From: Microthyrium microscopicum
Taxonomy: Eukaryota; Ascomycota; Dothideomycetes; Microthyriales; Microthyriaceae
NCBI GenBank assembly: GCA_010405405.1
Contig: MU004234.1
Span: forward strand, 2,001,642-2,065,641
Reading direction: 5' to 3'
Length of the DNA: 64,000 bases
The notes beneath the pieces are model-generated. The model saw only the letters and a program-made list of their open reading frames with translations. It was not told the origin of the DNA and searched no databases. Each line of letters begins with the position of its first letter. Position 1 is the first letter of the stretch. The translations under genes and the position numbers were made by a program. Below, piece by piece: positions 7,890-63,800 of this stretch.

Positions 7890-9323
7890 ATGACCGAAAC
7901 AAAAGAAGGCACCAGTTCGAGCCGCAAACCGGCAGAAATGGACCGCGCTCAAAAGCGAAAGCGCGATGGTTCTGTCACTCCACCACCACGATCCCCTCCC
8001 CGCGAGAGAAAGCGTCCTGGCGCCTCCTCTGGCCTTCCCAGCGGCCGCGTCGAGAAACGCCGACCCGGACCCTCACAACCACGCAAAAGAGATGGATCCG
8101 TAACCCCTCCACCACGCTCTCCTCCCCGCGAGAGAAAGCGCCCAGGCGTCTCCGCTCGCCTCCCAACTCGACGTCCTGAAGCCTTATCCCGCGACGCACC
8201 TCGAGATCAAAACCCCCCAGACATGATGTTACAGCGCGGCGTGCATAATGTGGTCGCCCAGCACTATAACGCTGTCCCCGAGCGTGGCCGAGCATGGCGT
8301 CAGACCGACAGCAAGATCAAGGGTCTGCGCAGCTTCAACAACTGGGTCAAAAGTGTGTTGATCCAGAAATGTGCCCCTAAAGAAGACGGCAGGGTCATGC
8401 GCAATGCCAAGGTTCTGGATATTGGCTGCGGAAAGGGTGGTGATCTGATGAAATGGCAGAAGAATCATATTGAACTGTATGTGGGCATTGATCCGGCGGA
8501 TGTGAGCATCGATCAAGCTCGCGATCGGTATGAGCAAATGAAGCGTAAAGATCGAAGGCTTTTTCATGGAGAATTTATTGCGAGAGATGGATTTGGACAG
8601 TCGCTGGACGGTATTGACATCGTCATGCGCGTCGGCTTCGACAAGGGACTGGATGCTCGTTGGGGCGGTGGTGGGTTTGACATTGTTAGCATGATGTTCT
8701 GCATGCACTATGCCTTTGAGACGGAAGCAAAAGCGAGACAGATGTTGCAAAATGTCGCGGGTGCACTTCGCAAGGGTGGCCGATTTTTGGGTGTCATTCC
8801 AAACTCTGATGCGCTCTCCGAGAGAGTCGAAGAATACTACAAAAAGCACTCCAAAGCTGCTCCTCCGGTCCAGGATGACGAAGACGATGACTGGGATCCA
8901 GAGAAGAGCTTGGACACCAAAGAAGAAGAGCCCGCTGCCAAAGACAAAGAAGAGTCGGAGGAGATCGGCTGGGGCAACAGCATCTACAACGTCAAATTTC
9001 CCCAAGGTGCACCAAAGGATGGTATCTTTCGACCTCCATATGGTCACAAGTATTTCTTCTTTCTGGAAGAGGCGGTGGATGAGGTTCCAGAGTTTGTTGT
9101 TCCATGGGAAGCTTTCAGAGGACTGGCTGAAGAATACAATCTTTCAATGGAATATCGAATGCCGTTCAGAGAGGTTTGGGAGCAAGAGAGGCACAATCCA
9201 GTTTTTCGAGAACTCAGCGAGCGCATGAACGTACGAGACCGGAATACAGGAGAACTGCGCGTCAGTGAGGAGGAGATGGAAGCAGCTAGTTTCTATCATG
9301 CATTTTGTTTCGAGAAGGTCTAA
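7890..9323 (+). CDS. ABD1: mRNA cap guanine-N7 methyltransferase
   Basis: The enzyme transfers methyl from S-adenosylmethionine to N7 of the guanosine cap on nuclear pre-mRNA. It is a single exon of 477 aa. The SAM motif is VLDIGCGKGGDL (about residues 175-186), followed by YVGIDPADVSIDQA, the MMFCMHYAFE region, GGRFLGVIPNS, and the C-terminal FLEEAVDEVPEFVVPW and ASFYHAFCFEK blocks, all typical of Abd1/RNMT. A poorly conserved acidic Glu/Asp/Lys insert lies around residues 330-355. The N-terminal ~105 residues are basic, Pro/Arg-rich and contain a perfect 21-residue direct duplication (listed separately). The first ATG fits the leader composition. Confidence 0.95.
   Translation: MTETKEGTSSSRKPAEMDRAQKRKRDGSVTPPPRSPPRERKRPGASSGLPSGRVEKRRPGPSQPRKRDGSVTPPPRSPPRERKRPGVSARLPTRRPEALSRDAPRDQNPPDMMLQRGVHNVVAQHYNAVPERGRAWRQTDSKIKGLRSFNNWVKSVLIQKCAPKEDGRVMRNAKVLDIGCGKGGDLMKWQKNHIELYVGIDPADVSIDQARDRYEQMKRKDRRLFHGEFIARDGFGQSLDGIDIVMRVGFDKGLDARWGGGGFDIVSMMFCMHYAFETEAKARQMLQNVAGALRKGGRFLGVIPNSDALSERVEEYYKKHSKAAPPVQDDEDDDWDPEKSLDTKEEEPAAKDKEESEEIGWGNSIYNVKFPQGAPKDGIFRPPYGHKYFFFLEEAVDEVPEFVVPWEAFRGLAEEYNLSMEYRMPFREVWEQERHNPVFRELSERMNVRDRNTGELRVSEEEMEAASFYHAFCFEKV
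7959..8147 (+). repeat. Direct internal duplication in the N-terminus of the cap methyltransferase
   Basis: Residues 24-44 (7959-8021) and 66-86 (8085-8147) are identical: KRDGSVTPPP followed by RSPPRERKRPG. The spacing is 42 codons. The DNA copies differ at several synonymous third positions, so the duplication is not fresh, yet the protein copies have been kept the same. The unit is rich in Arg, Pro and Ser, resembling SR/RP-type interaction or phosphorylation tails. Confidence 0.9.
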
Positions 9324-33836: not shown

Positions 33837-35994
33837 ATGGCGTTTTCTGACTATTCAAAATCTGCAGGCTTGAATGATGGGCCTCTCACGCGATGCAGCT
33901 CCTGTATGAAGATAGACGTCGAGAGCTTCATCAATCTTGGTTATTACGAGACCAACAAGCAAATCTGGACACATCAGAATAGTTGGGCCGGCTTTAAAAC
34001 TTCAGCAGTGGATGGATGCCAGCTATGTAGACTCCTGTGCATATCGGTATTATCTACGCGGATAATCAAGTTGCAGTCAGACGAGGATTCAGGTGGCTCG
34101 GTCTCGCTTGCAACAGCGCGACCAAACGCACTCCATGTCTCCTTCAATGGCTCGCGGGTTGCTGGATTAGCCTTTGGAGCTAGAAGAGGTAACTTGATCT
34201 TTCAAATCTTGGAGATTCTCCAATAACAAGAAAAGGCTTAGGAACGCATGAGGTTGACACTAAAATAAGCAAGTTTGCTCAAGAGCAGCCGGATTCTGAT
34301 GCTGCCTTTCGTCAGGTTGAGAACTGGCTGACGACGTGCCAATCTCATGAGGATTGCTTGGAGGCAAATAACGTGCCTCTTCCATCAAGAGTCTTGGATA
34401 TTAGGCAGTATCAGATCGACAGTACAGTTAGGTTGCTTGCTGCGTCGGGCATGAAGGGCAAGTATATTGCGTTGAGCCACTGCTGGGGCAGCACAGGAGA
34501 CCAATTGGATGATTTGTGAGTACTCTTAAACACTTAGGCAAGATTTATTGACATCGAAGGATACGAAAATGCTTAATGACTAATATCGATTCTCTCAAGC
34601 GTGGTTTCATGGCTTCTCAACTGCCGCAAAACTTCCAGGATGCGATTTCCGTTGCAGACAGGCTCGGTATTCAGTAGGTCTTCACCACCCATTTAGTGTG
34701 TACGATACCTAACATCTGAATGCTTAGATATGTTTGGATTGATTCTCTTTGCATCGTACAGGACTCGGTTTCGGATTGGATATTTCAGTCATCTTTGATG
34801 AGTGCGGTATATGGTTCGTCCTATTTTACAATCTACGCCTCAGATGCTGGGTTTCTTCGGCCTCGGAGCAAGGCGAGTTTTCTGGAAGCCAAGGTGTGCC
34901 AATTGCCAGGCTCAGGGGACTGGATATACGCAAGATATCCAAGATACGAAAATTACGTTACCGGTCGGCTTTGGGAGCGTGGCTGGGCTTTCCAGGAACT
35001 AATACTTCCTAGCCGAGTCCTGGAATACAGCCCGTCATATATCAGATGGTACTGCAACTCTGGAATATTGATTGAGACCGCGCCAGATCTCACCACGTCA
35101 TCGCTGTCCAGGCTGAAAAACAAGATTGCCAGGATGAACCAAAGAAACCAAAAACCATTTGAGCACCTTCCGTATGCTACATGGTACGAGCTTGTGCAGT
35201 CATACTCCCGTCGAAAGCTTGATAAAGATTCCGACAAGCTTCCAGCAGTCGCTGGTCTAGCCAATCTGTTCTTTGATTTGCTCAACGACCAATACCTAGC
35301 TGGACTTTGGAAAAAGGATCTGGCTGCTGGCATCTGCTGGCGTAAATATCAAGAATCTTTGCAAGAGCCAGCATACTACACTGCGCCATCCTGGAGCTGG
35401 GCATCTAAAATCGGACCTGTGGACTTTACATTTACTGCATTACACAACTACACTCTTGAAGTAGCCGATTATTCGACATATGTACACGGAAGAAGCCGCT
35501 TCGGTCAGGTGAAAGGTGGCTATTTGACCGTCAAAGGTCCTATGCGTACCTTCAAGATCCCACCAGTGACTGCGGATGTATACGGCACAGAGAAAAATCA
35601 CACTGGGATTTATGGACCGCCAAAACTTCATTCAAAAATTGAGGAGAATGCCACCAACCACTGCCACTTCTTCGAAATTAAGACACAAGAGAACTTTCGC
35701 AATTCATTAGGAACTGGCATCTGTACCTTCTCGTTTGATGTCTGCCTCCCAGCTGACTTGCCCACTCTTTACTTGTTCAAACTGAAGAAAGAGGGGATTA
35801 TAAACATCAAGAAAGCGGAGTTTGCTGGTTCACCAGACGGCTTGGTTCTGCGCAGGTATAAACACGAAGACGACTATCTTTATACACGGATTGGGGTATA
35901 TCAGGTGGCTGATCTCAATGCGCTGCGGATGGCTTCTGACACCGAGTATACTGAGCTCCGAGGCTGGGTTACGGAAACCATTACGATTGTTTGA
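33837..35994 (+). CDS. HET-domain (heterokaryon incompatibility) protein
   Basis: HET proteins mediate programmed cell death after fusion of genetically different hyphae. Four exons (33837-34188, 34242-34515, 34560-34673, 34728-35994) give 668 aa, with introns of 53, 44 and 54 nt. The N-terminus has a Cys-rich start with CSSC and CQLC (possible metal site). The HET domain shows YIALSHCWG, LPQNFQDAISVADRLGIQYVWIDSLCIVQDS plus a DW pair, and VYGSSYFTIYAS. It closes with the conserved GRLWERGWAFQELILPSRVLEYS segment. The C-terminal ~300 residues have no repeat domain that I can name. The frame is intact through all exons, with no stop codons. It stands near a MITE insertion and an F-box-like gene. 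Whether it is polymorphic or allorecognition-active cannot be told from one genome. Confidence 0.92.
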
Positions 35995-38827: not shown

Positions 38828-39860
38828 TCAAGACTCTGGAACAGACCTCATGGCATTGCCAGCAAGTCTATCGACTGCGAGCATTCCCTCGCTTCGACGC
38901 TTATGGCCTGGGATCCAGTGGTTGTGAACAGGCACTTCCTTCCGTCCAATGATTCTGGCCATAATTTTGCCTCGCTCAATCCAATACTTCATTCCTGGTC
39001 GATGATTACCACCACTTCCGCGACTGTTCAGAGCCTTCAGCGTATTTTGTGAGTCGCCGAAGAAGAACAGATCATCGCCCTTCTTCAAAAGAGGTGCTAC
39101 CTGCTTTAGACCATAAAGATATGCAGCAGCTTCAGCCTCAGCGCCATCTTCACCCATGAAGCCAATCGAGAACTCTGTCAGCGTCTCCTCATTGGCGCGA
39201 CGATATGCCACTCCCACTCCCATTCGTACCGGTCCTTTGTCGGCTCTAGGTGCTGCAGCGGAACCATCAGCCCACAAGAGTATGCGGTTGCTGGGACCTT
39301 TCAAAGCGATAATCATTCGTTCGAAAGTGACAGCGCGATCGAACTGCTGGATCATGGTGTGGCCAGAGGAAAACAGAGACGGCGCAAACATGCGAATTTC
39401 AGGTTTGCCGCTTCGGGTGAGCCATGTATTGTGGGAAGGCACAGAGAAGTCATCGCGAACAATTCGGAGAGAAGCAAGAATTTCTGGAGGTAGTATATCG
39501 GGAACGACAACTTGGAAATATGAATTGATTGCGCTGCAATGTTCGAATAATCTCGAGTCCATGACTGCGGAGTAACCCAAGCGGAAGGGTAGTGTCAGTC
39601 CTGGGGCAGCAGTAGGAGGAGACACTATAGTGAGCTGGTATAGATATGTCAGTTGATAAACTCTGATATACGTGTGATTATTGACTTACGTCTTGCATGG
39701 AAGCTTCGATACCAAGTTCTGAAATATTGTTCTCGATACTGTCGGTGGAATCGTCCGAATAGTTTTTGTTTGAGATTGGGTCCTCTGGGCCGCAATCAGA
39801 TAGAACGTTTTCGGCAGCATCCATTGAGATTGGAGCAACAGGCATAGTAGACATGTTCAA
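38828..39860 (-). CDS. RNase H-fold protein, solitary (not part of a retroelement)
   Basis: Exons are 39860-39690 and 39634-38828 with a 55-nt intron, giving 325 aa. The start is the ATG at 39860 (a second lies at 39854). After a non-conserved N-terminus with an acidic patch, an RNase H-like domain spans about residues 175-320. ILLWADGSAAAP gives the first catalytic-type Asp, GAEAEAAAYLYGL the Glu, LFFFGDSQNTLKAL the second Asp, and WIPGHKRRSEGMLAVDRLAGNA the terminal His/Asp motif. The full DEDD set is therefore present, so activity is plausible. The order and wording match RNase H domains of LINE-type elements and of stand-alone fungal RNase H-like genes. No reverse transcriptase or repeat flank is seen, so it looks domesticated or host-derived. 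Confidence 0.8.
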
Positions 39861-53757: not shown

Positions 53758-56073
53758 GATCAATATGAGGACGAGGCGACAGTAGAGGAATAATGGCGCA
53801 GCTGTATTTGAGAGACAAGCAGAAGTGATAGTGAGGGTTGCGGAAAAGTTCAACAGCAACGAGAACGAATTTGTGGTGGGAGAAGTATTTGAAGGTAAGC
53901 GGTGTCGATTTGATAGATTGTAGAATAAGGCAGCAGTCCACACTCACTGAAAGTGACAGCATGCTCGAGGTGCCTCCCTCATTGCTGGCTTGACTGCTCC
54001 TGCCAACTACAATTACCTAGCTGTCTGCATACGGCATAGAGCTTCTAGGCCGCTTGTTTCTCCCACCTCGTTCAATATTCTCTGTACTCCAGTTCCTTAG
54101 TATTCCACCATGATACTTCCATAGATTGCAATAAAGCGCCGCGTTATTGAAAGACATTCCAATTGGCACTATGAGGTGAGTACATTTTCCAAGAATTTGA
54201 TTGGTCAGTTTTAATGCTGTCAGTCCCGGACTAGGAACCAATTAGTGGCCCCGTTTTTATGTTTTTCCTGTGCACTTGCGCTCATTGCCTTCCTAGTAGT
54301 AGGCTAACCTGAAGCTATGTTTTCTTCTCAAGCCGTTTAGATTTGGCTGTTATGCGGTAGGAAGGAGCATTATCAAAAAGTCCAGTTCCGAACTAGATTT
54401 TGCTCCATTTGTATATGCCATGAGCCGATTGGGCATGATCGAATAGTCTACTAAGAATAAATACCGAGGCCTGAAAAGCAAAACGAAAGGTAAAAATATT
54501 CAGAAGGAGCGCCTGGGTTTTTGAAAAATGGGATCAATAGGTCTGATATGGGATACAAGCTCCCCCCGGTGGGCTATACGCCGACAAAGGCTCAACGTCA
54601 TCCAGTAACTGAGCGACCTCAAAGAAACAAGAACGATGGCAGCCATGGTCCTTTGGAATTTGGATGATAAAGATAAGCTTAGCTATTTTACAATAAAACA
54701 GCTGTTAGCATTAATGTAGTTCAAAAATGAGCTCCGGATGTTTGTGCTGATATATTGCTTTTGCTTGGAAAGGAAACATTTAAGGCACCATAAATGCCAT
54801 TGTTGATGATACCACTTTGTAACTTTGTTAAAGCGGCAGAAAGTAGATAACAATTGTTCTTGTATCAGGAAGCTAGATCCAGCCGCGTTAGCGCCTGGGC
54901 TAGGCGCAGAGCAACAGGAACTTCTTCGTATTTGATTTCCGGTGGTATCATATTCAGTGGTCAAACAAAGAAAGTTCAGAATGTATCTTTTTACTTCTTG
55001 TTACCCTTCTCACAGCAATTGGATTTTTTTTGAATGCCAAGCAAGACCTTGCCCGAAATTGGCACTTTAGAATAGTGAGAATATAACCCTCGTAGGCCCA
55101 GAGGAAGATTTGCTGGAGATTCAGTCTCCCTGGTATCCACGCGAAGCTCAATAAAGCCTGACATTGCTTATGATGTTTGAGCACTTGCCGCTCGACGAGC
55201 TTTAGCCCACTCACTGCGCGATGCATTCAAGATGGAGCTTATTCAGCGCGAAAGTCTCTCTGGGAACCCATCTAGTATTGTCTCGGAAGTTCTCGGAATT
55301 CTACAGGTTTTATTTTTCCTCTGGTCTTTTCTGTTTCAGCAAAACCGCAACAGCAACAGCAAGAGCGAGCTAGTATCTAATTGGTGGAATGCTTTGTCTC
55401 GTGGCGATCAACAGCCAATCAAATCCAAGCCTTCATGTTTTTTCCAACTTCATCTCATCAAAGGGTAGAAACACTGGAGATGCAACGAATGTAATTCAAC
55501 TTCAAGGGCGAGATATGATGTTGACTAGGTTTGGAGCGTCATGTCTCCCATTTCCAAGGTATTTATGCTTCGTATGATTCCGGCAAAGTTGAACAGAGCA
55601 AAAATTGCAGGTGGCCTCGAACTCACCACTGTTTATGCGGAAATTTGAACCTTTTAATAGCTTCATTTTGACCGCATCAACTTTCAATTTTGAGGCGCTT
55701 GCGAGCTGAGCCTTGCTAAAGATTGGTTCCAACACAAGCTGGCTTTGAGATGTCAACACTTCGGCTCCTTCTACCACCTCAATACCACTCGGTTGCCACT
55801 ATATCAGGACCTTCACTGCCCCAGTTTATTTTGTTGATTATAACCATAACTTGCTCCCTCGTCTTTGGCGCTCTGGATTCTATATAGCCCAACTACCGCC
55901 GCCGGCATATTGCTTCCCCAGCAAAAATCAGCACCAACTCTATCCCTCAAATCAAACCGTCAGTCCTCGCATCGCTCGTCCTTTCTGCCCAGCACTTCTA
56001 CCTTGAACACTTATGCTCTGCCTCTGGCGTCGATCGCGGCTCGGCTAGCCAGCCCACAAGTGAGACTATTGCC
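53758..56073. other. Gene-poor region upstream of the alanine-rich paralogs
   Basis: 2.3 kb. Only short frames are present, among them a plus-strand frame from an ATG at 55232 (78 aa) with a hydrophobic stretch ILQVLFFLWSFLF that could be part of a small membrane protein; I cannot extend it. The last 70 codons before 56074 are open in frame with the next gene but lack an ATG, so I treat them as leader. Confidence 0.4.
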
Positions 56074-57152
56074 ATGCGGGAAGCAGTAAGTATCTCATCA
56101 AAGCTCCTTCTACTTGCAGTACTAATATAGCTTGAGGGTCCTGTTGACAACTCCACTCTCGATGTATCTGAGATTTGCGATCGTCTTCTGTCTGTAGCAA
56201 TGAATGCATCATCAATGGCGGCCGGACGATTCGATATTCAAATACCTGCGCATAATCCTTCCCACACGAAGCGGAAGGCGGCCTTACTTGACAACGAAGC
56301 AGCACTGAGCAGCTGTCTCACTAGCTCTACAAAGTTCAAGCCTGCCAAAGATACCAATTCTTTCAAAAAGCCGCAACACGGCGCCGCCACCGGTAAACGA
56401 AAGGCACATTTTCTCAATGACGAAATTGCATTTGTAGAGCAATTTCAATTGGTTGCCGGGGGGAACTAGAGCCACTGGACGGCCTCCTGTGGTTTCATCG
56501 AGAAGTTATCGCCAAAATGCCTTGGTTGGAGATAGATATCTGTGCAAATGAGATTACCTTGGCTAGAAATTTTGCTCAAGACGCTTATGCAGCCGTTGAA
56601 GAAGCCGATTACGCTATCCAAAATCTCCATCAAATCGCTGAGATAGCCAAGAAGAAAGTCCAAGCAACTCAAACCGAAAACGACTTGGCCATCGCTGCCA
56701 AGACTTTGTTCGCTGCCAAATCTGGGAAAGCCGAGGACCGCGCGAAAGAAGCTGCAGCCATGGTCACTCGTACTGATAAGGCGGCTGATGAGGCATACGA
56801 CACATCTATTCAAGCTAGCTCGATCGGTACTGCAGCTTGGGAGCGTCTTGGGGAGTACGACTTGACATTTGGTGAGAAAAGTGAGCTCACTCGACAAGCT
56901 TTGGACCTCGAGCGTACAATCGACAGCACCGCTGCTGAAGCCAAGAAGGCGAACAATTGTTACGAAGCTAAGGCTGCTCTGGCTCAAATGGCCGAGGAAA
57001 AAGCTGAGACAGCGGTCATATATGCTACAATGGCTGCCGAAAAAGCCGATATGGCAAAGGTTGAGCTCGATTCGTCCAAGAAAGCAGCTCATATTGTTCA
57101 AGAGAGATTGGATAATCTTCCTAATACCAAGCTTCAAACTGTCGAGACTTGA
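56074..57152 (+). pseudogene. Alanine-rich helical protein, paralog 1, interrupted by a one-base frameshift
   Basis: Exon 1 (56074-56085, MREA) joins after a 45-nt intron to 56131, and the frame runs to TAG at 56467-56469. The TAG lies right behind a run of six G (56458-56463). One more G there would put the frame into the long downstream ORF that ends at 57152, giving one protein of about 345 aa. The downstream part is highly helical, rich in Ala, Lys and Glu (e.g. AAKTLFAAKSGKAEDRAKEA, AEEKAETAV), with no known domain. It aligns with the intact neighbour at 58169, including W-x-x-L, then EKS-x-x-TR-x-x-L-x-LE at identical spacing. It could be a real pseudogene, a homopolymer sequencing error, or two small genes. 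Confidence 0.6.
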
Positions 57153-58168
57153 CTAAGAGATGCTACGTTCAAACTCTTTCGAAAGGCGCGAGCGCCTCAG
57201 AAATCTAGCTCCCTAGAAATTGCCAAGAGAAGCTTGACTGGAGGATCATTTCGAAATGCAGAGCCGGCGTGGCGGCGCGAGGAATGACTGCAAGTGCTGA
57301 AATGATTGGAGGGTACATATCGTCACAGTAATGAACCCGTGTAGTACACGCCTGTTTATATTTGTATACGCTTCGCAGAGATTGCGCGAATAGTGTGTAT
57401 AACAAGCAGAAAGGACTCTTTGATTTAGCCATCGAGCCACTGCCAATCTCTAGTATTTGGGATATGGCTCACGCGTCTGTAGTCAACGTGCTTCGGCGTA
57501 CTTTGCTCTGGATCTGTAGTCGTACCAAGATAAGCTCCAGTCAGGGCCGTCTAAACTAGCCTTGAAAGTTTGAAATGAAACCGAGCTTCATGGCGGCTGA
57601 AGTGACCACAACGGCGGTTTCATCGGCTACAGTGTCCATTTCGACGACAAACGGGGTGCTTGGATTGCTATGCGGAAGCTCCATCACGTCTGACGAAAGC
57701 AATTTGAACAAGTCCTTCAAGTCTCATCACGGATGATAGCGAGGCTCACTAGCAACACGCGTAGAAACTCGAAGCTTTATCTGATCGGAATCATCGATAC
57801 TTGCTGGTCGAAATGTGTAGGATGGAGCCTACATCACGCACAGCCCAGAGAGGAACAACAATGGCGGCGTTTGGACCAGAACACCTCAACACTATATGCT
57901 CCAGACCACCTCAAACTATAATCTTCACTGACTCCTGGGATGTCACTATCTTGGTTCTCCAAGTCTTGTTTTTAACAGCCCGCTCCCTCGCCGACCTTAT
58001 TGTCTCCCAATGCTATGTACCTACCATTTCCGCAACCTAACTCTCGCGATCAAGAAATATCAAAGCCAAGCTGGAAAAGAAACACAAATTTGACCACAGC
58101 TGGCGTTGTTGAGGCAGTCTGCGATTCAAAAACCTATCTCAATCGCCCTCAAGAATCTCAGCTTCATC
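57153..58168. other. Spacer between the two alanine-rich paralogs
   Basis: About 1.0 kb without a supported gene. The last 200 bp are C/T-rich and lead into the ATG at 58169. No duplicated promoter block could be matched by eye with the upstream region of paralog 1. Confidence 0.4.
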
Positions 58169-59061
58169 ATGGAGTCAATCAACACTACGTCTACTGATGA
58201 TCAAAGCGCCGGCGCGCGGGGAGCGGTCAGTAGCAAGATAAATACGACATGCTGATGTGTACTATACTGACCAACCCTCAGACCGAGGTCGTAGACTCCT
58301 GCTCCAGTTCATTCGTTAATGACTATACTATCAAGGCTCCAGATGTTACAAGCAAATCATCAGGCTCTCTCCCTCCCGCTATGCTCGAATCTTCCCTATT
58401 CACCCCTGGCGACGGAGACAACAAAGAGAAGCGTAACAAAAACAATTTCAAGGCGAACAAGAATCTACCAGGCCGTATCGTGCAGAAGTTTGCCGCCTGT
58501 ATGAATGATGATCTGAAACCAAGCTTTGCTGATCAGATCGCTCTCATCACACAATATGCTCAAGAAGTTGATGCGGTCATTACCAAGGGCAGATTAGCCG
58601 CTGCAGAATCAAAGGCTGCTATCGCTGAGTACGAAGATAAGACAGCCGACTACGACTATGCTTGTGCAGCCAAGATCGTGCATAGCGCCAATGCCGCGGA
58701 TGCTGCGAAGATGGTTGAACGAGCCACGAAAGTTGCATCAAAGCACGATAAAGCTGCTGCGAAAGCCTACAAAGCCGCCACAAAGGCATATGCCCTCGCC
58801 ACTGAGCAGTGGGACATCCTCATGCAGCCAGGCGCTACGCACGCCGAGAAAAGCATCATCACGCGCAATACTTTGAAGCTTGAAGCTGAGGCCGAGAAAG
58901 CCGCAAAACACGCTGAGGCAATGGGCACTAGTGCCGAGGAGACGGATGAAACGGCAAACGAGGCTATTGTTTATGCTGAAAAAATGGCCGATCGAGTGGC
59001 TAAGGCCGCGATAGAAGAGCAAAAGACCAAGACTGAACTTGCTGCTCGAGGACCGCCATGA
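58169..59061 (+). CDS. Alanine-rich helical protein, paralog 2 (intact, unknown family)
   Basis: Exons are 58169-58225 and 58282-59061, with a 56-nt intron, giving 278 aa. The start ATG is chosen because its 19 codons splice in phase 0 to the main exon, the same phase and place as the intron in paralog 1. Residues 1-100 are polar and Ser/Asn-rich. From about residue 105 the protein is almost all helix-forming, with Ala near one third of residues plus Lys and Glu, for instance HDKAAAKAYKAATKAYALA and AEAEKAAKHAEAMGTSAEE. No signal peptide or membrane segment is evident. The layout resembles LEA-like or coiled-coil proteins in composition only; I do not recognise a family. The copy next door is frameshifted while this one is open. 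Confidence 0.7.
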
Positions 59062-60866
59062 ATCTCACAGTGGTGAAGGTAGATGATTCTGGGGTTGAGC
59101 TTAAGGTCGCCATGAAACGATTTACTACAGAGTTCGGTAAGCTTACTCAACAGATAAAGCAGCGCATGGCCGTCATTGCGGACTCCAAATGTAATTGAGC
59201 CCCAGATCATGATTGATCGATCAGAAATACCACCGGATCGTTGGCGGGATGGAGCCTGGTGAAACCAGTAAAAGATTGGATGATATTCAAAGTAAACATG
59301 GATGGTATTGAATCTGAGTTTATCAGATCTTCGAATGCAGGCTTGTGTAGTGGGATCCTTTGACTGCCTTTAAATTGTAAAGGTTGGGAGGAGAAAGATT
59401 ATTCGCGAATGGAATGTCGGTCATGGAGTATGCCAAAGCTCTCAACAAATGAATGCTTCTATAGTTGTTCGGGTTTGTCTTGATTAGTACAAAACCGTTG
59501 AATTGCTAGGTATCTTGTAGTTTTCGCTGAAGAAACTCAACGTGTGTTAACACTCCAGGACCGTATTTGCAGCGGGCCACCTTTAGGCACGCGTTGCGCT
59601 ACGATGGTCATCATGGCTGATATTCGAACAATCCCAGGCTTCTTGCTGGATTTTAGTTTCTGTAATAGATAGAAGATTATTACTTACAACTACACATGAC
59701 GACTATATTCAGTTTATTCAGCCGCCGGCATTGAAAACCAAATGACGGTTTATAAAAAGCCTTCCACCACCACCAACAACCATAATCCCTGGAAGGCATT
59801 ATCCGAAAATATCATAGCAATAAAACCAATCATTCTCCTGTCATATAGAAAGAAAAATTGAAGAAAAACGAGTTTCTTGAAAAGTGGCCACCCCCAGAGT
59901 TGACCACACTGCCTCGTCCCAAACGGGCAAAAAATTATAATCACCGGCTTAGGCTGACTAGACCCAGCCTATCACGACACTGCAGCGAACAAGCCACAGT
60001 CTCGGAGTGTACATTAATTACAAAGTCCCTAGAACACACCGAGAGACACCGTTTAAGTGGTGATTTATGTAAAATTACTAACTTCTGTATATATACTGTA
60101 TTCCCACCAACCATGGAAAATAAAAAACGATGATAATGCTTGGACTTTATTTTCATCAAATATAAACAATAAAAGGTCTATTTCCTTTTTTCAATACTCA
60201 TGTACTATTACCCGGATCGAACATTGGAGTAAGGGGGTCTATTCTACCTTTACAACGCGCGGTTATCCATCTAAGCCATTTAGACAAGGATCCGCCAAGG
60301 ATCCATAGAAGTCTAGTCAAGGTCATAAAATTGAGGCTTCCTCAAACGATTGAGGGATAGCCCTGAGCCTTGAGCGGGCAATGCCTCTTATGTTTTTAAA
60401 GCTCAACAAATTAGCACAATAGCACAAAATCTTCTGGGAAAAGGTTGCGTAACATGGGGCCACGAACTACTAATCGGTCGATTCCACATATTTAAACAAC
60501 ACTTCAGACGCTGCTATAGGTATTGAATTCAATCACCTCCAGTAGGTTGTGTTTTAGTATGTTCTATTCTAGCTAGCCTATGTTTTAGCAACCCTGACGC
60601 CGGGCTTCATGACAAGCAGATCTATCAGAGCAACGGGACAGTTCGGAGAACCTAGCAAAATCACTAATGATACAAGTAGCAAGAAGAGTGTCCTTCGCGG
60701 CTTCGCCTATACATACGAAGACAATGACAACAATCTCGTTATGGTAAAGAAACAATAACTGTTGGATACAACACGAAGAGAACAAAGAGCAAAGCGTCGA
60801 TGAAAACAGAAGTTGGAGTTTCTGGTCAGACCTCCCCATCGAATATAGACTCAATCTTGTTTGAGC
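59062..60866. other. Intergenic region up to the RIP island
   Basis: 1.8 kb without a supported gene. It contains the tRNA-like relic listed below. Other short frames on both strands have no protein character. Confidence 0.4.
60196..60290 (-). pseudogene. tRNA-like relic, possibly derived from tRNA-Thr(TGT) or a tRNA-derived SINE
   Basis: On the minus strand TGGCTTAGATGG is a good A box, followed at tRNA-like distance by TTGTAAA (where an anticodon loop with TGT would lie) and by GTTCGATCC, a good B box. The T-stem and anticodon stem do not pair properly, so it is not a working tRNA. A short A-rich run follows the tRNA-like part, which would fit a SINE. Only the two box motifs are directly seen. 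Confidence 0.35.
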
Positions 60867-63800
60867 CAGGGTTGCGAATCTAGTAAGTTTTATCTAGTCT
60901 AGTATCTAGTAAATCTAATCTAGTCTAGTATCTAGTACGAGATTTTTTGGACTAAATCTAGTTTTACTAGTATCTAGTTTTAGTAAAAACTAGTCTAATC
61001 TAGTACTAGTATGTAATTATATAAATCTAGTAAATACTAGTATCTAATTAAGTATACTAGTTAAACTAGATAATACTTATTATAATTTAAATATATTTAT
61101 TTTAAGATAATTTTTATATTATTTAATAGCTCTAGACAAAGAGATTCTAGATTTAGTTTTAGTTTTTCTTAAATACTACTAGTTATAGCGTTATAATTAG
61201 TTTTCTAAAATAATATAATAAATTTAAAATCTTAGATTTAAATTTATATAATACTAACTATAATATAATAAGAAATAGTTTAAGATATATTATACTAAAC
61301 TAACTATATTCTTTAAGGTAATAAATTAGTTTTAGCTTATAACTTAATATTTATAATAGTATTTAATACTTTAAGTAAAAAAAAATATTTACTTAGATAT
61401 TATATTAAATTCTACATAATATATAGAATATATATATACTACTATAGTATATATTAGCTTAAGATTACTATAGACTTAATTACTAGTCTAAATATTAGTT
61501 ATAAGTATTATATATAATAGAAATATTTATTTATATTTTTAATTATTTAGTAATAGTAATTATTACTAAGTTATTATATCTAATAAAAGTACTAACCTAT
61601 AGTATAAGCTATGCTCTATAAGATAGCCTATTTAGATTTTCTTATCTACGTCTTATAATATTATATTTAATCTTTAATCTAACTTTAAACTTTAATAAAT
61701 ATTATATCTATAACTAAAAGATAAGATATAAAAAGATATATATTATAATTAGAAAAAAATACTATATTTTCTAGGCTATCTTAACCCCTTTTTTTAGTAT
61801 AAAGGAAAAACTAAATAAGTATAGACATAAAAATAAAAACTAAAAATAAGAACTACTAATCTATAATATCTAAATCTTCCTATTTAAAGTCTACTTTATC
61901 TTTAGCATTAGTAGTAGTAATAAAACTAGTACTAAGATAAAAAGTATTTCTTAATTTAGAAATATAACTATTTAGAGCTATTTTAAAAGCTACTAGTTTA
62001 GGCTTTACTAAAGCCTATCTTTCTACCTAAAAAAAATTAGCTAAAGTATTAAAATTAATAATAATTAGTAACTTATAATATAAGCTATATACTTAATAGC
62101 GTTAGCTACTATTTTAGCTTTTTTAATAGCTTAATCGTTTGCTACTTTAGCTAAGTACTTTTATTATAATTTAGCTCTAAAAGCTACTCTTTTAGCTTTT
62201 ATAGCTTCTTTTTTAGTAGCTTTTTAGTCTAAATACTTTTTAGTAAGTATATAAAGAGCTTCCTAAATAGTTAGTTCTTAGGGCCTAAAAATAGGGCTTT
62301 TAGAACGTCTATTATTTATTAGATATTAATTAATAAAATAATAGAATATAACTTACCTTTAGGGCCTAAAATAAGCACTTATAAGAAAAGAAGATAATTC
62401 ATAACTAGGGCTTAAAGGAGATCTATTTAATAATTAGTTATTAATTAATTAATTAATAAAATAAAAGAATATTACTTACTTTATAGCTTCTAGATACCTT
62501 TTAAGTTACTTTTTAAAGACTAATTTTAGCCCTAACTAATTTATACTTAATACTAGTATATTAATTATTTATTAACAACCTATACTAGTCTAAATCTAGA
62601 TAATAGTAAATAAAATAAGTATAGTAGTATCTACTTAATTATATAGGAAGGTATAATTTATATTAATCTTATATACTTCTAGAATATAATATATAATAAA
62701 AGTATAATTAAGATTAATTCCTTAGTAAAGTAGATTATTTTTAATACTAAAATAAGTATATTTAAGTTTCTATTTATCTATAAAGAAGACTATATAGCCT
62801 AAATAAGGGCTATTAATAGCGCTATCCCTTTTTAGAATAAAGATTTTAAGATTAGATATTCTTTTATTTAAAATTAAAGCATTTTAGTAGCCTAAAAACT
62901 CTACTTAAAATCTCTAAGCTTTAGCAAGCTACTTATATAAGAAAGAATACTCTATTAATATTAATATTAGTTATATAAAAGATTTAGTTACTTACTAATA
63001 AGTTTTATTATATAGAGGTCTAGGTAAAGCATTCTAATTTAAAAAGTTAATAAAAGTAAAAAATAAAAAAATCTTTATAAAAATTAGAATAACTTATAAA
63101 CTAGGCTAAGATAGGCTAGATAAAGACTATAACTAGAAAGAAGAGGAAAAAAGAATATAAAAATAATATCTTTTAGATACTAGCTATAGCTAGAAACTAA
63201 AAAGATAAAACTTTAATAATTTAAGAAAAAAGAATTAAAAAAGAGGAAAGAGTAACTTATATAGAGATTTTAAATTAGACTAACTATATTCTAATTAATT
63301 TAACTATATTCTAAGCTAGATTATAGTTAATCTAATCTAAAATCTCTATATAAGGTACTCTTTCTTCTCTTTTAATTCTTCTTTCTTAAATTTTATAAAA
63401 AAATTACTTTTTAGAAATATATTCTAAAGTACTACTACTCTTAACTAGTTTATATATTATTACCTTTTTAGGATATATATTCCTACTTTTTTTATAGGTT
63501 TTTCTAATAAGTTTTTTTTACTTTTTTTACTTTTTTTAACTAACTTTTTTTTTAGTTATTTAGTATATTACTAAGTAGTCTCTACTTTTTATTTCTATTT
63601 CTAGAAGTATAGAAAATACTTTTTTAAAGCTTTTTATAGCTTTTTTTAGTAAGTTTATTTTTACTTTTTTTTACTTTTTTTTACTTTTTTTACTATATTC
63701 TAATATTTAATTTAGGCTTCTTTTCTAGTAGTATTTCTACTTTATACTTTTAGTATTACTATTAGTAGTAAGTTATTTACTTATATTTTAGAAATATTTT

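Follow-up and report, generated by a model that had tools for sequence, protein, structure and literature searches.

Antiparallel coiled-coil hairpins of known structure, such as those of the HAMP-Tsr fusion 3zx6, the Smc segment 5xg2 and PI3K p85 iSH2, are among the closest described systems to the two proteins considered here. In Alacoil-type packing, an alanine is found at each seventh position of the helix. LEA proteins and hydrophilins have a helical composition rich in Ala, Lys, Glu and Thr, which is common to both proteins, and hydrophilins are defined by a Gly content over 6% and a hydrophilicity index over 1. GARP is a Glu/Ala-rich protein of Trypanosoma.

The window, that is, the whole stretch of 64,000 nucleotides that was analysed, corresponds to C5:2001642-2065641, C5 being a contig of 2.77 Mb in a host genome of 36.88 Mb and 20 contigs. 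Positions are those of the window unless a contig is named. The two genes, P1 (56074-57152, +) and P2 (58169-59061, +), are neighbours on one strand, in a region where short introns and genes of the HET-domain, Ams2/SPT21-type and HsbA families (Pfam) are present, features that point to a filamentous ascomycete. Searches of the window for tRNA and for Rfam RNA were both empty.

When compared with LEA proteins and hydrophilins, P1 and P2 are less hydrophilic and less Gly-rich, and P1 has heptads. Both fall well short of the hydrophilin definition, with 10 Gly in 278 residues and a GRAVY of -0.52 for P2, and 5 Gly in 228 residues and a GRAVY of -0.37 for the C frame of P1. The best Pfam line for P1 is GARP (PF16731), with 13.8 bits (E 0.041) over residues 83-147 of the 243-aa frame, short of the 27.4 bits that the curated cut-off requires, and P2 has no GARP line at E up to 1. 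Other sub-threshold Pfam lines were Arg_decarbox_C for P2 (12.2 bits) and CBM_35 for the N-terminal stretch of P1 (14.0 bits). With E up to 1, no match above the curated cut-off was obtained in Pfam for P1 or P2, and none of any kind in NCBIfam or among PDB sequences for either protein. Two short peptide patterns gave 180 stretches in prokaryote species genomes and 67 in viral contigs, none of which was confirmed, and a literature search for a protein family of this kind returned nothing relevant. Judged by Pfam, NCBIfam, PDB sequences and the literature, the family is apparently undescribed, in agreement with a preliminary description of this DNA that had recognised no known family, and with it a fungal genome gains a protein family of two members. 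The reading that we favour, tentatively and at slightly less than even weight, is that of an old tandem duplicate encoding orphan, probably intracellular, antiparallel Ala-rich helical hairpins with a structural or scaffolding role.

Gene models of P1 and P2

The two genes comprise the following features:

56074-56085 (+): P1 exon 1, 4 codons (12 nt) from the ATG, ending GCA ahead of GTAAGT
56086-56130 (+): P1 intron 1, predicted, phase 0, 45 bp, GTAAGT...TAG
56131-56469 (+): P1 N-terminal coding stretch up to an in-frame stop, 112 aa open
56393-56469 (+): P1 frame-change zone, candidate intron 2 (GTAAAC...CTAG) or broken frame
56466-57152 (+): P1 Ala-rich helical core, 228 aa, 20.6% Ala, homologous to P2
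58169-58225 (+): P2 exon 1, 19 codons, ATG at 58169
58226-58281 (+): P2 intron, predicted, phase 0, 56 bp, GTCAGT...CAG
58282-59061 (+): P2 exon 2 (P0001), 259 aa, a polar N-terminal part followed by an Ala-rich helical core

The predicted intron of P2 has a good branch-like ACTGAC upstream of its acceptor, and the spliced product is 278 aa long, with an exon 2 frame that is uninterrupted to 59061 and a core containing 26.7% Ala. For P1, the upstream open frame (55888-56130) has no ATG besides that at 56074 and, if intron 1 is left unspliced, translation meets the stop at the end of that frame. This intron is a tentative prediction, given that the branch-like TACTAAT lies very near the acceptor. 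The preliminary description gave both genes a phase-0 intron near the N-terminus, and the predicted intron comes after a GCA codon in P1 and after GCG in P2.

A codon log-odds model built from 14 other ORFs of the window, which themselves score 0.09-0.24 bits per codon, points to coding in both cores and in the N-terminal stretch of P1. The scores are 0.19 bits per codon for that stretch (56131-56466), 0.30 for the core of P1 and 0.31 for exon 2 of P2, and together with the open frames they support the earlier claim of two plus-strand coding units at this place. The share of the score that comes from synonymous choice is 0.03-0.035 (-0.01 to 0.09 in the training ORFs) and, given that this share is small, the coding score reflects mostly amino-acid composition. 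The strand opposite the core of P1 (56466-57152, -) is also open, over 228 codons, which is probably a by-product of composition because the codon scores of this strand are close to zero or negative.

The frame of P1 that follows intron 1 stops at 56467-56469, and the core is read in a different frame, open at 56421-57152 (243 codons). P1 is thus not one open frame past intron 1. This frame change had been passed over in the preliminary description, whose tandem pair of paralogs with a common core is upheld. Because the reading frame changes upstream of it, the 228-aa frame of P1 may be an incomplete protein. Several splice choices could join the N-terminal stretch to the core frame and, among the options listed, 56393-56469, with a GTAAAC donor and a CTAG acceptor, is the most ordinary-looking. 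The zone near 56.39-56.47 kb may be either a second intron or a broken frame. The N-terminal stretch also holds a short protein-level repeat, KRKAALLDNEAA / KRKAHFLNDEIA, whose mismatches fall mostly on third codon positions (8 of 12, against 4 of 12 first and 2 of 12 second positions), and the extension of this repeat into 56393-56469, the piece that intron 2 would remove, counts against the second intron.

The frame changes in this zone, the in-frame stop and the repeat that runs into the piece to be spliced out are what would be expected if P1 were a decaying pseudogene and P2 alone the working gene. We regard this as somewhat unlikely, given that the core frame of P1 is open over 243 codons and keeps its coding score, that acceptable splice ends for a second intron are available, and that the frame change may come from an assembly error.

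Directly 3' of the stop of P2, a frame at 59061-59196 is coding-like (0.21 bits per codon over 45 codons) and is possibly a lost tail of P2 or an unrecognised exon. It has no Pfam match at 0.1, and no clear splice donor was seen when one was looked for at the 3' end of P2.

Homology and age of the pair

It is clear from the sequence comparison that the cores of P1 and P2 are homologous, beyond a compositional likeness. They have in common ~180-200 residues with ~31% identity, and their Smith-Waterman score of 188 was reached by none of 8000 shuffles, 2000 each of the global, 20-residue-window, mod-7 and mod-11 kinds, for which the best scores were 99, 122, 104 and 111, respectively. When matches of Ala, Lys and Glu are not credited the score is 40, which was reached by none of 2000 window shuffles (best 37) and none of 2000 global shuffles (best 36). 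The check proposed in the preliminary description, an alignment beyond Ala/Lys/Glu composition, was thus run with a positive outcome, and the best such alignment, of 45 residues (DKAA...AY...W..L.....T..EKS..TR..L.L), falls on the motif pointed out there. Each half of the core taken alone also has a score that none of 2000 window shuffles reaches. In the genome search, P1 and P2 are mutual best matches after self (E 1.3e-6 and 1.9e-6), and in a set of 306 ORFs drawn from 124 kb (stop to stop, 80 aa or longer, ORFs containing N being left out) the runner-up scores 47 with P1 and 58 with P2, versus 188 for the pair.

At the DNA level the likeness of the cores is weak, their score being reached by 1 of 300 shuffles, and no likeness above shuffle level is seen in the 5' region (123 of 300), the N-terminal exon part (175 of 300) or the 3' flank (229 of 300). 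In both genes the best match of the 5' region, which is non-significant, coincides exactly with the junction between the first exon and its intron. Given that the DNA outside the core is at shuffle level, the duplication is old or fast-evolving and not young in sequence, contrary to the young family that had been proposed. A recent duplication was rejected on the protein identity of ~31% and the state of the flanking DNA.

Searches of the host genome, the one fungal genome covered, with both proteins and with fragments comprising the turn and the second helix returned only P1 and P2 as credible members, and very diverged copies might escape these searches because they score only their best candidates. 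A line on C1 from the fragment search (E 1.19) was considered as a third member and set aside.

Predicted structure and nature of the proteins

The motif of the core and the loop predicted within it are placed as follows:

56838-56912 (+): P1 motif W-x-x-L ... T-x-x-EKS-x-x-TR-x-x-L-x-LE, invariant columns
56850-56867 (+): P1 hairpin loop, residues 129-134, AlphaFold2
58810-58884 (+): P2 motif W-x-x-L ... T-x-x-EKS-x-x-TR-x-x-L-x-LE, invariant columns
58822-58839 (+): P2 hairpin loop, residues 181-186 of P0001, AlphaFold2

The invariant residues are W125, L128, T134, E137-S139, T142, R143, L146, L148 and E149 in P1 (228-aa frame) and W177, L180, T186, E189-S191, T194, R195, L198, L200 and E201 in P2 (P0001). 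The distance from W-x-x-L to EKS-x-x-TR-x-x-L-x-LE is therefore equal in the two proteins, as the preliminary description had noticed. AlphaFold2 predicts helices at residues 79-180 and 187-256 of P2 (P0001) and at residues 19-64, 68-128 and 135-216 of P1 (228-aa frame), with a short break at 65-67. Two long helical arms and one short turn are thus predicted in both proteins, in models of low confidence (mean pLDDT 61.9 for P2 and 61.1 for P1, pTM 0.40 and 0.35), and the six-residue loop falls at one position of the motif in both. The blocks of highest pLDDT, 80-85 in P2 and 80 in P1, lie at or beside this loop. The two models are not independent, because both used one two-sequence alignment. 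In the models, T-x-x-E-K-S is best read as forming the turn and capping the return helix, a probable structural meaning that the preliminary description had passed over. Given this meaning, relatives may be searched for by the turn motif and not by composition.

A Foldseek search with the model of P2 gave no match at E <= 0.001, an absence that excludes nothing. The structure neighbours of this model are a mixture of long-helix and antiparallel coiled-coil proteins, with chemoreceptor, Smc, PI3K iSH2 and SH3BP5 as the families named, and no particular family stands out. The predicted fold itself is common and, as it stands, the pair is one of many cases of fungal orphan genes with a common fold.

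The hydropathy of P1 has a power of 12.2 at period 3.5, reached by none of 500 shuffles, and that of P2 a power of 6.4, reached by 7 of 500. The values range over 12.2-14.7 in P1 and 5.2-6.4 in P2, and the heptad pattern is clear in P1 and mixed in P2. At period 3.667, which is of the 11-residue type, the power is 0.28-0.53 in P1 and 6.2-7.8 in P2, where it is as strong as the heptad. In P1, alanine occupies 17 of the 28 slots of one heptad position, a stripe that none of 3000 shuffles reproduced and that resembles the Alacoil type, whereas the stripe of P2 is non-significant (288 of 3000 shuffles).

In the antiparallel hairpin that we favour, each protein would have a flexible polar N-terminal part followed by a long Ala-rich hairpin. 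The first helical arm would span ~100 residues, continuous in the model of P2 and interrupted at 65-67 in that of P1, and would be followed by the six-residue turn and by a second helix, 70-82 residues long. The motif would form the tip of the hairpin, with W-x-x-L closing the first arm and T-x-x-E-K-S capping the second. The Ala-rich faces of the helices, strongest in P1, would allow close helix packing and favour self-assembly or hetero-assembly of P1 and P2. The proteins may then be small structural or scaffolding proteins whose variable N-terminal part gives specific contacts.

The same composition is compatible with stress protectants of the LEA/hydrophilin type, disordered when hydrated and helical on drying or on membranes. 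A helical sequence rich in Ala, Lys, Glu and Thr with few bulky residues would suit such proteins, as would the period of 3.667 in P2 that matches the heptad period in strength. Nonetheless, no LEA model of Pfam was found for P0001 or the P1 frame at E up to 1, the hydropathy and the low Gly content given above stop short of the hydrophilin definition, and the heptads of P1 are clean. In addition, the conserved Trp and the conserved turn in both proteins suggest a fixed fold. We consider stress protectants of this type unlikely.

Amphipathic helices that coat membranes or lipid droplets, with 11-mers like those of perilipins or apolipoproteins, would likewise be long and Ala-rich and would account for the period of 3.667 in P2. 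This is improbable given that P1 has almost no power at that period and that no such Pfam family was found at E up to 1.

Convergence of P1 and P2 on an Ala-rich coiled-coil composition is highly improbable and already disfavoured: the pair is not listed by SEG-masked BLASTP at 1e-4 (ORFs containing N excluded), BLASTP with composition adjustment reaches only 27.3 bits (E 2e-4, a single comparison) and the N-terminal parts align no better than chance, with 182 of 2000 shuffles scoring at least as high, but the score of the pair exceeds all shuffles, including those that preserve heptads and 11-mers, the signal persists without credit for Ala, Lys and Glu (0 of 4000), and the genes lie in tandem on one strand with a matching predicted intron phase and exon ending.

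Surroundings of the pair

From ~61 kb the sequence is AT-rich, with a GC fraction of 0.21, a TA/AT ratio of 1.59 and a (CA+TG)/(AC+GT) ratio of 0.23 at 60.5-64 kb. This island bears marks of RIP, and the location of the pair next to repeats, as given in the preliminary description, is borne out by the fact that the stretch borders it. The island ends near 69 kb, and the 3240 bases directly past the window read N. An RNase H-like family is represented in the genome by three matches at 1e-5, and all of these lie on C5:2053938-2079434 (-), a span of ~25.5 kb with matches on both sides of P1 and P2:

52291-53490 of the window (-): RNase H-like copy
5021-6859 of L006 (-): RNase H-like copy
C5:2078814-2079434 (-): RNase H-like copy

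The family takes its name from the L006 copy, which has a Pfam RNase_H line of 28.9 bits. For the window copy at 52.3 kb, which is 38% identical to the L006 copy over 202 residues, Pfam itself gives no line. Weaker relatives lie at 38828-39685 of the window and, in the joined 124 kb, at 94397-94912. A HET-domain gene (PF06985, 49.5 bits) is found at 34720-35994 of the window.

These surroundings could be read as a nursery of orphan families at a RIP-mutated island, with the hairpins as assembly modules in self/non-self recognition or transposon control. The two copies of the hairpin family would be confined to this place, with the RNase H-like copies flanking them and the HET-domain gene further out, and the hairpin proteins would work with these neighbours. 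We hold this to be very improbable. The pair would carry greater weight if the co-localised RNase H-like copies were functionally linked to it. A study on Neurospora describes lineage-specific genes that cluster with HET-domain genes near telomeres (PMC10684091). The likeness to that case is an analogy only, because P1 and P2 lie ~0.7 Mb from the nearer end of C5.

Past the island, at 8581-9228 (-) of L006, lies a gene whose product is a hydrophobic surface binding protein of the HsbA type (PF12296, 77.2 bits). The left edge of the island (60866-61000) is 94-98% identical to C8:62.8 kb, C5:90.7 kb and C11:81.1 kb, each less than 100 kb from the start of its contig, and 85% identical to C10:1.67 Mb. 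The repeat at 59886-60097 is dispersed, with one counterpart on C1 and two on C7 at 72-77% identity.
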